From a virus: 27,523 nt of DNA. Shown in pieces: positions 36 to 27,523 of this stretch. Below the pieces are notes generated by a model. It made no database searches. It saw nothing but the letters and a program-made list of their open reading frames with translations, and was not told where the DNA came from. How positions within the stretch are numbered: position 1 is the first letter of the stretch; every line of letters begins with the position of its first letter. The translations under genes and the position numbers were made by a program. The stretch lies in IMG/VR virus record IMGVR_UViG_3300046524_000215, positions 1-27,523 of that record. One strand, 5' to 3'.

Positions 36-111
<76 letters not shown>

Positions 112-221: not shown

Positions 222-1058
222 ATGGCATGGTTTGAGAGCACTCTAAGCTTCCTATCACCTGGTTGGGTTGGTTCATTGATTGGGCTGGCTGGCTTGCTTA
301 GTGCTGTGATCGTCTATTTGCTCACACGAAAGCGCACGAGCTTGAGCTTTGCGTATCTCGGAGAGCACCTACTGGGCAGCGAGTCCGACACCCTCCCTGC
401 AGGGATAAGCGTGCAGTACCAGGGAGCGGATATTCCTCGACTGACTCGATCTGTCATCGTCCTCTGGAACAGTGGCGAGAACACGATCATGGGCTCCGAC
501 CTGGTGGATATCGACCCACTTCGTTTCCGTGTCGGGACAGATGGCGAACTGTTGTCTGTGTCAATCTTGAAGGCTAGCCGCTCGGTGAACGACTTCAAAA
601 TCAGACATCGCTCCGCACACGCGCCAAACGAAGCAATCGTGGAATTCAATTACTTCGACTCAGGGGACGGCGTAGTCGTCGAGATCCTTCACACCAGTGC
701 AAGCCGTCAGCCCGATATCAAAGGAACACTTCGAGGTCTACCGAAAGGCTTGAATTCTGTAGGCCGAATGAGCCGATCACCTAGCTTCTTCAAACGAACT
801 GGGTCAGGTCGTGTGTTCTCGATTTTCGCTCCCATCCTAGGTGCCGCCTGGATGCCAATCATCGTCGGCGGTGCGTTCATACTGACCGGTTTGTTCGGAA
901 GCCCTGAAACCCTCAACGCTGTAATGATGTTCAACCTCGAGAAACCGAGCTCTGTCGTGATGGCAATGGGAGCACTTTACGTAGGCGTGGGGTTGGTTTG
1001 TCTGTATGTGTTTCGACGCAAGCACCCCAAGAGCCTCCATGTCGAAGCACTCGAGTGA
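222..1058 (+). CDS. Three-TM membrane protein of unknown function
   Basis: The 278-aa protein starts at an ATG with an AGGGA-type ribosome site about 8 bases upstream. A hydrophobic segment at residues 12-34 is followed by basic TRKR. A soluble domain of about 160 residues (38-195) comes next, with β-rich character and motifs such as VLWNSGENTI and FNYFDSGDGVVVEILH. Two more membrane segments follow at about 197-225 and 245-264, then a basic tail. I recall similar single-domain membrane proteins as scattered accessory genes, but I cannot name a family or function. It stands alone between the tRNA and the repeat cluster, with no partner gene on its strand for 580 bp. Roles such as superinfection exclusion or defence are possible for cargo in this position but nothing in the sequence proves them. 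Confidence 0.8.
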   Translation: MAWFESTLSFLSPGWVGSLIGLAGLLSAVIVYLLTRKRTSLSFAYLGEHLLGSESDTLPAGISVQYQGADIPRLTRSVIVLWNSGENTIMGSDLVDIDPLRFRVGTDGELLSVSILKASRSVNDFKIRHRSAHAPNEAIVEFNYFDSGDGVVVEILHTSASRQPDIKGTLRGLPKGLNSVGRMSRSPSFFKRTGSGRVFSIFAPILGAAWMPIIVGGAFILTGLFGSPETLNAVMMFNLEKPSSVVMAMGALYVGVGLVCLYVFRRKHPKSLHVEALE

Positions 1059-1240
1059 TTTTTGTCCAGCAGTCGGCGTGGCTCCCTTTGCGACTGTTGC
1101 CATGACCGCCTGCCTGGCAATCCCATTCTCAGTAGCGACCGATGAGTAACAGTATCGGGTGTGATAGACCGATTTTTTCGTGCCCTTAGCTGTGCGTACA
1201 CATAATACGAAACGCCCTTACACGAAGCGCCGAAAAATTT
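1059..1240. other. Intergenic, nothing recognisable
   Basis: There is no convincing ORF, hairpin or RNA gene. The sequence becomes AT-richer toward the repeat cluster that begins at 1241. Confidence 0.5.
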
Positions 1241-1563
1241 AGGTTGACCCCTAAAAAGCATGTCAGTTTTGTCAGATTATTATTCTAACTACTGTCTAAT
1301 CCTTCTAATTCAAGCCTCTCCGCCGTTTTGGTTAATGTCAGAAAGGTGTCAGGGACCCGTCAAAACCTGACAAAACCTGACAAAACAGCAGTGTCAGATT
1401 CACTATTTCTAAGCTACTGATTTATAAGTATTTTTTATTTCAGATGGTAAAGCTGACACAAACATCCAACCTCGGTGTCAGATCATAAACCCAGTAAACA
1501 CGCTGCCTCCAGAGCATTTGCTGACAGACATCCATGATCTGACAGGGATTTAGGGGTCAGCCT
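1241..1563. repeat. TGTCAG repeat cluster bounded by inverted 15-mers (origin-like)
   Basis: The hexamer TGTCAG occurs on the plus strand at 1261, 1270, 1336, 1347, 1392 and 1476, and as its complement CTGACA at 1367, 1377, 1453, 1521 and 1539. That is 11 copies in 284 bp, where about 0.14 would be expected by chance. The array is bounded by AGGTTGACCCCTAAA (1241-1255) and its inverted partner TTTAGGGGTCAGCCT (1549-1563), 14 of 15 matching, each followed inward by a TGTCAG after 4-5 bases. An AT-rich stretch lies near 1420-1445. Clustered hexamers in both orientations with an AT-rich core are typical of replication origins bound by an initiator/primase, as in P4-type satellites, or of a multi-site operator. 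No initiator gene is adjacent, so the function is inferred. Confidence 0.8.
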
Positions 1564-1638
1564 GAAAAAACCTTAATGAGGCATCTCGAAGCTATCCTTC
1601 AAAATGCCCCCGACGCGCACTGATCGAGGAGTATAAGC

Positions 1639-1998
1639 ATGCGTAAGACAGCATCCCGAGCAGCAGTACCCATCATCGAAACCATCAAGAACGGCGCGGC
1701 TTGGGAGGTGCATTGGGATTACCAGGAAGCACCCGAAAGTTCGATTCTGTTCCAACGCCGTGAATACCTACGTGGTTACATCGACGGCACCATGGATGAC
1801 ATAGGAGTTCATCCCGACAATGTGTGCTGTGCCAGCGGTCTTACCGGGGCCGTAAAAAAGCTGACCGAAGATCAGGCTGTGAGGTTGCGTGATGCTCTGA
1901 ACCGCGTGCTGATCCCGATCGTGACCAAAGAATTCACGCGCCTTCAGAACATGAACAACCTGCCTCACCTACGAATGGTTGACGCTGAGGAGGCGTGA
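1639..1998 (+). CDS. Hypothetical protein, 119 aa, downstream of the TGTCAG array
   Basis: The ATG follows a strong ribosome site (GAGGAG, about 7 bases upstream). The protein is soluble, with no membrane segment or signal peptide. Its N-terminus is basic (MRKTASRAAVP), its middle is aromatic and acidic (WEVHWDYQEAPESS), there is a CC pair near residue 63, and the C-terminal half is predicted helical. I do not recognise the family. It begins 76 bp after the repeat array, so that array may be its control region. Phage or satellite cargo is the likely origin. Confidence 0.7.
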   Translation: MRKTASRAAVPIIETIKNGAAWEVHWDYQEAPESSILFQRREYLRGYIDGTMDDIGVHPDNVCCASGLTGAVKKLTEDQAVRLRDALNRVLIPIVTKEFTRLQNMNNLPHLRMVDAEEA

Positions 1999-2454
1999 AA
2001 CCCTCTGAAACGTCGTAACTCTCCTGTAACCCTTGCCGCGTATGGGCCTTAGGGGAATTCACACCTCCCCCGCATGCGGGCAATTGCCAGCCGAAAAAGA
2101 TCGTGTGCGTTTTGGAAAACACACCGAATCCCATGTTTTCGAAGTTTTAGTCCAATGAAACCGGGCACTCCTGCTATACCCCCTCCGTGACCGCTCGATG
2201 CATCGCTGTGCAACCGCGCTGCATTTCCTTTCAAAACTTTGCACTCTGTGAAATTGCCGATCGCCTGTAGAGCCCCACGACCCGCCTGGGCTGCAGACTC
2301 GTTTGCACTACATCCGAATTTGCACAAAAAAAGGACGCAAAGCCCGTCGGCGGGAGGGGGATAAGTGCTTTTTCAGACGTTTTTTTCTTCGCACGACGGA
2401 TTTCTCTAGCATCTGCTCTTGCATGGCTCTGATCTTCGTTTCATCGGACTTTCA
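1999..2454. other. Intergenic region without a supported gene
   Basis: Only short ORFs without ribosome sites occur. A 12-bp perfect palindrome, CCCGCATGCGGG, lies at 2069-2080. The rest shows no clear repeats, RNA gene or terminator. Confidence 0.5.
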
Positions 2455-3693: not shown

Positions 3694-3750
3694 AATCAGT
3701 ATTTCCGACAGACGGTCAAAGCTAACTTTTGATAGCAAAAAAATAACAAC

Positions 3751-3788
3751 TGATAACGCCTGATAACGCCTGATAACGCCTGATAACG
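3751..3788. repeat. 10-bp tandem repeat TGATAACGCC, 3.8 copies
   Basis: TGATAACGCC is repeated perfectly at 3751, 3761 and 3771, with a partial copy at 3781-3788. The 10-bp period puts each copy on the same face of the helix, as for cooperative protein binding. It sits just beyond the 3' end of the tail operon. Integrase arm sites or a regulatory array are candidates. Confidence 0.75.
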
Positions 3789-25004: not shown

Positions 25005-25352
25005 TTAATTCGATCCTTTGGCGGCGTCATCGGCCATGGCTTTCAGGAAACGACGGATCGCTTCCTGGTCGAATGGCGTGATGCTTCTGTATTGCTTGAT
25101 CAATTTCTCTTCTTCTGGAGAAAACAGTTGCCCAAGCGGCGTGGAACGCCGGCCAGTCAGCACAAACGCCGCATCTACACCGCACTCTTCAAGTGCCGCC
25201 ACATAGCGAAGGTCGAGCGAATTCGCCCCCAGTTCATAGTTTTTTTGGGTCCCCCGACTCACCCCAAGAAGCACTCCAAACTCTGTTTGATTTAATCCTA
25301 AGCGCTCGCGCTCTTCCCTCAGGCGTTCACCTACTTGATCCGCTATGAGCAT
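25005..25352 (-). CDS. XRE-family phage repressor (C-like), no autocleavage domain
   Basis: The start at 25352 (MLIADQVGERLREERERLGL) is chosen because GGTGA lies 8 bases upstream; starts at 25370 or a TTG at 25394 would add 6-14 residues and cover the likely operators. The 115-aa protein has an N-terminal helix-turn-helix (QTEFGVLLGVSRGTQKNYEL) and a short C-terminal helical part (TPFDQEAIRRFLKAMADDAA) for dimerisation. It lacks the LexA/S24 peptidase region, so RecA-driven self-cleavage is not expected. It is divergent from the Cro-like gene and should hold the lysogenic state. Confidence 0.88.
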   Translation of the reverse strand: MLIADQVGERLREERERLGLNQTEFGVLLGVSRGTQKNYELGANSLDLRYVAALEECGVDAAFVLTGRRSTPLGQLFSPEEEKLIKQYRSITPFDQEAIRRFLKAMADDAAKGSN

Positions 25353-25374
25353 TTTTTTATTCACCATCATTGAC

Positions 25375-25394
25375 TTGATCAATTTTTTGACCAA
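25375..25394. promoter_or_regulatory. Putative operators between repressor and Cro-like gene
   Basis: TTGATCAA (25375-25382, perfect palindrome) and TTGACCAA (25387-25394) lie 12 bp apart just upstream of the repressor start. ACAAACG follows twice at 25407-25413 and 25423-25429. These are candidates for repressor and Cro binding. No promoter hexamers stand out. Confidence 0.5.
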
Positions 25395-25674: not shown

Positions 25675-26154
25675 ATGAAAAGCTCAGTTCTAAAGACTCG
25701 GCGTCAGGTAGTCAGCGCAATCATCTGCGCCTACCCAGGCGGACGCGAATGCGCAGCAGCTCGCATCGGTCTGTCACTCAAAAAGTTCGATAACCACGCC
25801 TACGAGAACAACAACAGCCGCCCGTTAACCGACGCGCAGATCTATCAGCTTGAGCTTGAGGCCGGAACGACCTTTTTACCGGAATACATCGCAGCCATGT
25901 ACAGCGGCATGTTCGTTCCTGTCGTTGAGCCTGAATCGTTGGATAACGTTGAAATGTACGCCCGGTGTGTAGAGGCAGCGGCCAAGAAGGGCACCGTCGA
26001 CCAGATCATTGCGAAGGCACTGGAGGACGGCACAATCAACGACGCGGAGGCGGAAGCAATCCTTCAAGCCGACACCCTGCATCTGGCTGCCAGGCACGCC
26101 GAAGTACTCGCACTCATTCAACTGCATGCTTCGAAAGCGGGGAAATTCAAATGA
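25675..26154 (+). CDS. YmfL/CII-like regulatory protein
   Basis: The 159-aa protein begins MKSSVLKTRRQVVSAIICAY and has PGGRECAAARIGLSLKKFDN and RPLTDAQIYQLELEAGTTFL, the pattern of YmfL-type phage regulators, with a DNA-binding N-terminal half. The C-terminal half is helical and acidic (IIAKALEDGTINDAEAEAIL). It lies second in the early operon with AGGA upstream. A CII-like role in the lysis-lysogeny decision is likely for the family. Confidence 0.82.
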   Translation: MKSSVLKTRRQVVSAIICAYPGGRECAAARIGLSLKKFDNHAYENNNSRPLTDAQIYQLELEAGTTFLPEYIAAMYSGMFVPVVEPESLDNVEMYARCVEAAAKKGTVDQIIAKALEDGTINDAEAEAILQADTLHLAARHAEVLALIQLHASKAGKFK

Positions 26155-26589: not shown

Positions 26590-26841
26590 ATGGAAAACGC
26601 CATGAACATCAACGCAAAACTGACGCCCGATCAGGCTCAAGCGCTCTTGGCCAACCTGCGCGAGCAATACCGTCTCAGCCTCAATGACCTCTGGTACGCA
26701 GACCAGTACCGCCTGATTCCCGATGGCCTGCGCCACGGATCGATTCTTGCCAACAGCCCTGTAATGGCCGCTCAGAAACACCTGATCGGCGCCCTTACCC
26801 AAAGCCTCGGCCTCAGCCTTAAAGCAGCGAAAAAATCATGA
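26590..26841 (+). CDS. Early phage protein, unknown, 83 aa
   Basis: The ATG at 26590 has GAGG 7 bases upstream; a TTG two codons earlier is less likely. The protein (MENAMNINAKLTPDQAQALL, QYRLSLNDLWYADQYRLIPD) is helical, with no known motif. It overlaps the primase gene as ATGA. It may be a primase partner, judged only from position. Confidence 0.7.
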   Translation: MENAMNINAKLTPDQAQALLANLREQYRLSLNDLWYADQYRLIPDGLRHGSILANSPVMAAQKHLIGALTQSLGLSLKAAKKS

Positions 26842-27523
26842 TGAATGAAGATATCCGAACTCAAGTACTTCAGCGGCTGGAAGACGACTTCGGCCTGAAG
26901 TTACGTGTAGGCACGAACTACATGCGAGGCGGCGTTTGCCCTGCCTGCAACAAGAAAGAGCTATATGCCCGTCACGACAAGCCATGGCAGATCCGCTGTG
27001 GTCGCCCGGAGCGCTGCGGTCATATCGAACACGTCAAAGCAATCTATGAGGACCTGTTCGAGGATTGGAGCAAGCGAGCGCCGGCAACGGACAACGACCC
27101 GACCGTAACGGCCCGTGCGTACTTGGAATTCGCCCGGGGCTTGAACGTCGGAAATATGACCGGTTGGTTTACCCAAGAGAACTACGTCAACCACGAAACG
27201 AATGAGTCCAGTGCGACGATTCGATTCACCCTGCCGAACGGCGGCTATTGGGAACGCCTGATCGATCGCCCTGCCCGCTTCGGCAAGATGAAGGCTCGTT
27301 TCAAACCCAAATACAGCGCACAGGGTGAATGGTGGTGCCCGCCGACTGTGGACCTGGCCAGCGTCAAAGAGCTGTGGATAGTCGAGGGCATCTTTGACGC
27401 CATTGCCCTAGTGCAAAACGTCGTCGATGCGGTGTCAGCCATGTCGAGTGTGAACTTCCCGATCGAAGCTTTGAAGCAGTTGCTCGAGCAGCGTCCGGGC
27501 AATCTGCCCACTCTGGTCTGGGG
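26838..27523 (+). CDS. Zinc-finger/Toprim phage primase, cut by window end
   Basis: The open frame starts at the ATGA overlap (26838) and runs off the window after 228 residues. The N-terminus has a zinc-binding site with CPAC (Cys34, Cys37) and IRCGRPERCGH (Cys54, Cys60). A linker follows, then a Toprim core WIVEGIFDAIALV with Glu183 and Asp187. This is the layout of phage primases that make RNA primers; in HP1/P2-related phages of pseudomonads a primase-helicase of this type can replace gene A replication. Whether a helicase domain follows cannot be seen. Confidence 0.88.
   Translation, partial: MMNEDIRTQVLQRLEDDFGLKLRVGTNYMRGGVCPACNKKELYARHDKPWQIRCGRPERCGHIEHVKAIYEDLFEDWSKRAPATDNDPTVTARAYLEFARGLNVGNMTGWFTQENYVNHETNESSATIRFTLPNGGYWERLIDRPARFGKMKARFKPKYSAQGEWWCPPTVDLASVKELWIVEGIFDAIALVQNVVDAVSAMSSVNFPIEALKQLLEQRPGNLPTLVW

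Follow-up and report, generated by a model that had tools for sequence, protein, structure and literature searches.

The closest described counterparts of the locus analyzed here are found in satellite P4, in SaPI and SCCmec elements, and in P2-type phages. In P4 (NC_001609), the ori1 and crr regions contain short repeats in both orientations, the type 1 repeats of about 8 bp, and the annotated repeats form pairs spaced by 9 and 18 bp in crr and by 10 and 11 bp in ori; the corresponding protein is α (Ziegelin et al. 1993, as cited in PMC8628076). The SaPI Rep protein reads an iteron origin through its C-terminal domain, SaPI iterons lie directly downstream of the helicase gene, and a DUF927 domain is present in the Cch protein of SCCmec, a relative of SaPIBov1 Rep (PMC7581432). 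The P2/186 group uses a gpA rolling-circle origin, which in P2 is a single nick site inside gene A with no iteron cluster. In a search of the open-licence literature we found no description of the array reported below; an earlier description is possible.

The TGTCAG array and its host element

The window, by which we mean the whole stretch of DNA analyzed, is a 27.5-kb virus contig encoding P2-type capsid scaffold, terminase, and portal proteins. At its left end is a tRNA-Thr(TGT) gene (36..111, + strand), the prophage attachment site, and toward its right end are an HTH repressor-like ORF (25005-25394, − strand), a CII-like regulator (25675-26154), and the N-terminal 228 codons of a gene for a Toprim primase/DUF927-type helicase (26838..27521, + strand), which is truncated by the window end. 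The encoded fragment shares 94% identity with its counterpart in Pseudomonas phage UFJF_PfPro (PfPro). From the virion genes, the tRNA-Thr, the CII-like and repressor-like ORFs, and the Toprim primase, the window is assigned to a P2-like (Peduoviridae) Pseudomonas prophage inserted in tRNA-Thr, of which it represents a part ending inside the primase gene. Several relatives are flanked by the same tRNA-Thr, and the attachment site of phage Smp131 is the same tRNA (PMC3931495). Direct repeats of ACGTAACAA at 159-167 and 171-179 adjoin the tRNA-Thr, with similar repeats near att in PfPro (1771-2070) and Dobby (37023-37075); these are likely integrase arm-type sites, separate from the TGTCAG array. 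Elsewhere in the window, four tandem copies of CTGATAACG(CC) are found at 3748-3787, between small ORFs and a D-like tail gene.

An initial sequence-only reading had noted eleven TGTCAG motifs within 284 bp, six forward and five reverse, inside inverted 15-mers, and a recount gave the same numbers. The whole window contains 17 copies of TGTCAG against 14.7 expected, whereas the expectation for the array stretch is ~0.15, and a blind scan over all 6-mers of the window returned the cluster with E = 4.6e-12. The enclosing 15-mers, AGGTTGACCCCTAAA (1241-1255) and TTTAGGGGTCAGCCT (1549-1563), are complementary at 14/15 positions, and once mismatches are allowed the outer inverted repeat reaches 1238/1566, with a left arm TTTAGGTTGACCCCTAAA (1238..1255, + strand) and a right arm TTTAGGGGTCAGCCTGAA (1549..1566, − strand). 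Iterons 1 (1261..1266, offset 0) and 2 (1270..1275, offset 9) are on the + strand and are followed by a left AT-rich spacer (1276..1320; GC 27% in its left part), a candidate unwinding region, which separates them from iterons 3 (1336..1341, offset 75) and 4 (1347..1352, offset 86), also on the + strand. Iterons 5 (1367..1372) and 6 (1377..1382, offset 116) are on the − strand, and iteron 7 (1392..1397, offset 131) is on the + strand. One of the two − strand sites (1367 or 1377) was created by a 10-bp tandem duplication, to which iteron 5 belongs and which is unseen in 12 aligned relatives, where the counterparts of iterons 6 and 7 are at offsets 106 and 121. Beyond the center are iterons 8 (1453..1458, − strand), 9 (1476..1481, + strand, offset 215; 205 in relatives), 10 (1521..1526, − strand), and 11 (1539..1544, − strand), the last separated from iteron 10 by 18 bp, a distance that also occurs between paired sites of P4 crr. 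The paired spacings of 9, 10, 11, and 18 bp in the initial reading are real, as is the AT-rich center, a trough at ~1401-1446 with 17-30% GC.

The central stretch contains an IHF consensus, WATCARNNNNTTR (AATCAGTAGCTTA), at 1410..1422 on the − strand, and most arrays of the window's own group (group A, below) have this consensus in the AT-rich middle at a conserved offset. All arrays together contained 33 IHF sites against 1.65 expected in shuffles, a ratio that is indicative, because the shuffles preserve base composition only and the sequences are kin. Arrays of this class contained no DnaA boxes. The cumulative GC skew has no turning point at the array, which counts against an origin but is uninformative here, since the known P4 ori is also unmarked by GC skew. 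No plasmid matches to window positions 1141-2100 were detected, and the matches listed in a genome-wide scan for AGGTTGACCCCTAAA were spread over unrelated taxa, with no Pseudomonas among them.

The array had been placed between a tRNA and a gene for a 119-aa protein. The 119-aa gene (phrog_9349/16042; 1639..1998, + strand) does adjoin it, but on the tRNA side a 278-aa ORF (222..1058) without a Pfam or PHROG match intervenes, probably a variable cargo gene. The accompanying remark that nothing adjacent explains the array needs correcting in that the likely explanation is present in the window, at its far end, in the primase gene (26838-27521). The two are 25 kb apart in the linear prophage and, judged from PfPro, ~3.3 kb apart on the circular genome, a separation that counts against the origin reading.

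Conservation of the array across phages

Using the 119-aa protein as query and marker, we identified 33 related loci in IMG/VR. Among the loci whose upstream sequence was long enough, 20 have the TGTCAG array (group A), with sites at about −367, −358, −292, −281, −261, −246, −162, −117, and −99 relative to the start codon of the 119-aa gene. A sister group B of seven loci (L119-L123, L125, and L126) has the word TGTAAGTGA in an unchanged architecture, and every phage of groups A and B has the array immediately 5′ of the 119-aa gene. When 13 arrays were aligned as DNA (nine group A rows and four group B rows), the following pattern emerged: TGTCAG at columns 46, 112, 168, and 252 in 9/9 group A rows is TGTAAG or CGTAAG in 4/4 group B rows; the same replacement is found at column 134 in three of the four group B rows, and the opposite-strand site at column 229 is CTTACA in group B. 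Most words have thus changed in a coordinated manner, and a parallel one-base change at five or six separated sites is the signature of a specificity change in a single reading protein. Each group A genome contains one cluster of 9-11 sites, and three of these genomes have only small additional groups of three sites elsewhere. Loss of spacing conservation in homologous loci, or membership in a common repeat family dispersed over many loci, had been set beforehand as grounds for rejecting the initial proposal; spacing proved to be conserved, and every related phage genome that was read has one main array.

Of 30 records searched, 22 encode the primase or a divergent relative of it. Where a relative combines the 119-aa gene and this primase with sufficient upstream sequence, the array is present and its offsets are nearly constant. 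Genome G006 (locus L101) encodes a 119-aa protein 84% identical to that of the window, yet it has neither the array nor such a primase, encoding instead a serine recombinase and an S24 repressor. Because G006 keeps the 119-aa gene without both array and primase, the array tracks the primase and not the 119-aa gene. An apparent exception is G027 (L158, about 8.0-9.7 kb), where a group B array occurs with a primase only 30% identical. The array, a 119-aa remnant, and an integrase match there adjoin another P2-like prophage in what looks like a tandem or remnant arrangement. The 119-aa and D genes of G027 have the same orientation, unlike in intact phages, and the 89%-identical integrase match overlaps the 119-aa gene, from which we conclude that this array probably belongs to a second, remnant prophage.

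Relatives of the primase are encoded in 25 phage records. Each primase-bearing genome that was read complete has one dominant noncoding two-orientation cluster with its own word: GGTAAT in Dobby and Sirocco, GGTAAC in Smp131, AAGGTAA (GGTAA) in Halomonas 4908, TGTGATGG/CGTCACA (GTCACA) in ESSI2, GTTACA in 2F_1, TGTTCC in phi3 and contig G026, and TGGAAG in PaBSM. No iteron cluster was found in the genome of P2, which has the gpA replicase. Most clusters are enclosed by an inverted repeat whose sequence is class-specific and differs between motif classes. In phi3, G026, and PaBSM the array is directly downstream of the primase gene, whereas in PfPro the two are some 3.3 kb apart. A weaker cluster in Microcystis phage Mae-JY29 (L237, 11926-12214), within a 42-bp inverted repeat downstream of a recombinase gene, is a candidate origin of the same kind. 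Bacillus phage ZY1 has no array, and its record starts partway through the gene that in Halomonas 4908 comes after the array; none was found in MT836451, a 10-kb fragment. The ESSI2 record (L183) has its origin-like array at 28388-28650 and a second cluster, six copies of GTCCACA at 26742-26959 downstream of the integrase gene, which counts against the origin reading. Two further repeat clusters were noted near the ends of related contigs: dense ACAAAAGG/GACAAAA around 16500-17166 in L201, a prophage contig, reaching as many as 20 copies within 350 bp, and six copies of GGAACAC around 16712 in L197, which resembles the phi3 origin word.

The distances between sites are shared more widely than the words. 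Group A (L108) sites are at +0, +9, +75, +86, +97, −106, +121, +174, +205, −250, and −268, and a common ruler of 0, 9, 75, 86, 97, and 106 bp also underlies four phages with other words: Dobby (+0, +9, +74, +85, +96, −105 ... +205, −259, −268), Halomonas 4908 (+0, +9, +75, +86, +97, −109 ... +207), ESSI2 when mirrored (0, 9, 75, 86, 97, 106, 121), and Smp131 (0, 9, 75, 86, 121, 206). Sites shared with group A were counted against random placement, with mirroring, motif flip, and shifts allowed. Dobby and ESSI2 each had eight sites in common with group A and Smp131 had seven (0/400 random placements each), Halomonas 4908 had six (1/400), and five of the six sites of the annotated P4 ori (NC_001609) fell on the group A ruler (0/400 random sets). 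For phi3, PaBSM, and P4 crr the fit was no better than chance (65/400 for P4 crr alone), which counts against the origin reading. The layout of P4 crr (+, 43 bp, −, 18 bp, −) is similar to that at the right-hand end of the array in the window (+, 45 bp, −, 18 bp, −), suggesting that the window's array could be a fusion of ori-like and crr-like halves. Replacement of the word in related phages with almost unchanged spacing points to one protein reading the array.

The proposed initiator and competing explanations

PfPro and its relatives encode, in the place of P2 gpA in the early region, a 903-aa protein annotated as "DNA primase" (phrog_1139) with Toprim_2 and DUF927 domains, and this is the proposed initiator. 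It was modeled with AlphaFold2, with 20 locus proteins as input, at a pLDDT of 69.6 with weak stretches at 379-519 and 586-679. In the predicted structure, residues 81-305 match DnaG/T7-type primases (Z about 14), and residues 431-901, a region modeled in part at low confidence, match the SCCmec Cch helicase 5dgk (Z 16.3) and SaPIBov1 Rep 8tch (Z 12.7). When solved structures were searched with the primase sequence, no relative was found beyond a weak DnaG match. The C-terminal 208 residues (pLDDT 88) are predicted to form a helical bundle with a winged-helix-like end, for which the best fold matches, both weak, are Cch and an accessory protein of the pCW3 relaxosome. The weakness of these matches counts against the origin reading, as does the lack of detectable sequence similarity between this domain and the P4 α C terminus; only the Toprim part of the primase aligns with P4 α. 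The P4 α origin-binding domain was not among the fold-search matches, an absence that is no evidence of difference. Along the primase, local identity between groups A and B changes sharply only at the extreme N and C termini, and the difference is strongest at the N terminus and in the C-terminal domain.

The array is very probably the replication origin of a P2-like temperate Pseudomonas phage in which a self-contained primase-helicase has taken over from the gpA module, and it is probably also a cis-required region. The initial suggestion of a replication origin or initiator-binding region is supported by co-occurrence with the Toprim primase-helicase and by the P4 ori geometry. We infer an iteron origin that would be recognized by the C-terminal domain of a primase joined to a Cch/SaPI-Rep-like helicase, with binding and replication deduced from these comparisons. 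Excision and circularization of the prophage would come first. The ~903-aa protein, with its N-terminal Toprim primase and C-terminal DUF927/Cch/SaPI-Rep-like AAA+ helicase, would then bind the TGTCAG iterons, which face each other from two halves, so that probably one hexamer is loaded per side. IHF would bend the AT-rich middle, which would then melt, and bidirectional replication, presumably in theta mode, would start with primers made by the same protein.

The region could be origin-like and yet be read by another early phage protein, such as the CII-like or cox-like protein, the repressor, or a small protein encoded beside the primase. Several small early genes co-occur with the primase, and the primase shows no dramatic local change to match the word switch between groups A and B. 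Phages that share a word are, however, mosaic for CII, repressor, and cox, G026 has an array while lacking close copies of most of these genes, and the A/B primase differences are strong in the extreme C-terminal domain, and we regard a different reader as unlikely. The initial reading had also raised a large operator of the 119-aa gene; such a regulatory region, bound by the 119-aa protein or a phage regulator, would account for the position of the array immediately upstream of that gene throughout groups A and B. This explanation is disfavored, and in our judgment very unlikely, given that G006 keeps the gene without the array, that the same ruler is present in phages lacking the gene (only PfPro has it in the phage collection), and that the phi3-type arrays of phi3, G026, and PaBSM are beside the primase gene.

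It is extremely unlikely that the array represents integrase or excisionase arm-type sites: although it is near the attachment-site end of the prophage, its repeats do not flank the att core, about 1.1 kb, including the 278-aa gene, lies between it and the tRNA, and the repeats that adjoin the tRNA are a different pair, ACGTAACAA, seen again near att in PfPro and Dobby. The attP of Smp131 is at 30738 (PMC3931495), and the Smp131 array is at 33053. A centromere-like partition or incompatibility site, or a transposon-end or MITE remnant, could similarly present iterons in both orientations enclosed by inverted repeats, but no partition genes or transposase were seen nearby, and the presence of one main copy per phage at an orthologous position, the conservation of its internal ruler, and a geometry matching P4 ori make either scarcely credible. 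No conjugation genes were seen, and the conjugal origin proposed initially is not supported.

Relationship to P4, SaPI, and P2 replication systems

If the array is an origin, it provides a concrete, testable one for a large set of P2-like phages that are annotated with nothing more than "DNA primase," and suggests that in P2-type phages rolling-circle replication has given way to a primase-helicase system resembling those of P4 and the SaPIs. A ruler that stays fixed while the words are swapped forms a natural series for studying hexameric initiator positioning and the evolution of origin specificity. We further advance, as possible rather than probable, a family of origins in which the ruler is fixed across the Peduoviridae and P4 while the word and the initiator C-terminal domain have been repeatedly and coordinately replaced. 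Much as plasmids fall into incompatibility groups, such a family would comprise many mutually incompatible (or noninterfering) origin specificities; competition with satellites, or with prophages that reside in the same cell and share the replication strategy, could be the driving force.

The window phage shares its virion gene family and genome plan with P2 and 186 but has the primase where they have gpA. With P4 it shares a cluster of short two-orientation repeats in a noncoding AT-rich region, the pair spacings of 9, 10, 11, and 18 bp found in ori and crr, and a Toprim primase and helicase in one protein. The repeat word differs, being TGTTCACC in P4, TGTCAG in the window, and TGTTCC in phi3/G026; P4 has ori and crr ~4.5 kb apart, whereas the window has a single array; and the P4 α family has Zn_Ribbon_Prim, Toprim_3, D5_N, and Pox_D5 domains, in contrast to Toprim_2 and the DUF927/Cch type here. 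Because of these differences in word, two-region layout, and helicase domain type, the system was not filed in the P4 α family. The original idea of a remnant of a P4-type satellite accordingly stands for the mechanism but not for the element, which is a full P2-like phage. The helicase half is predicted to have the fold of SaPI Rep and SCCmec Cch (DUF927/MCM-like, self-loading); it differs from those systems in the fusion of primase and helicase, and the SaPI arrangement of iterons directly downstream of the helicase gene is found in phi3, G026, and PaBSM but not in the group of the window. The best reading is that the array system would work like those of P4 and the SaPIs, with its sites spaced as in P4 ori.
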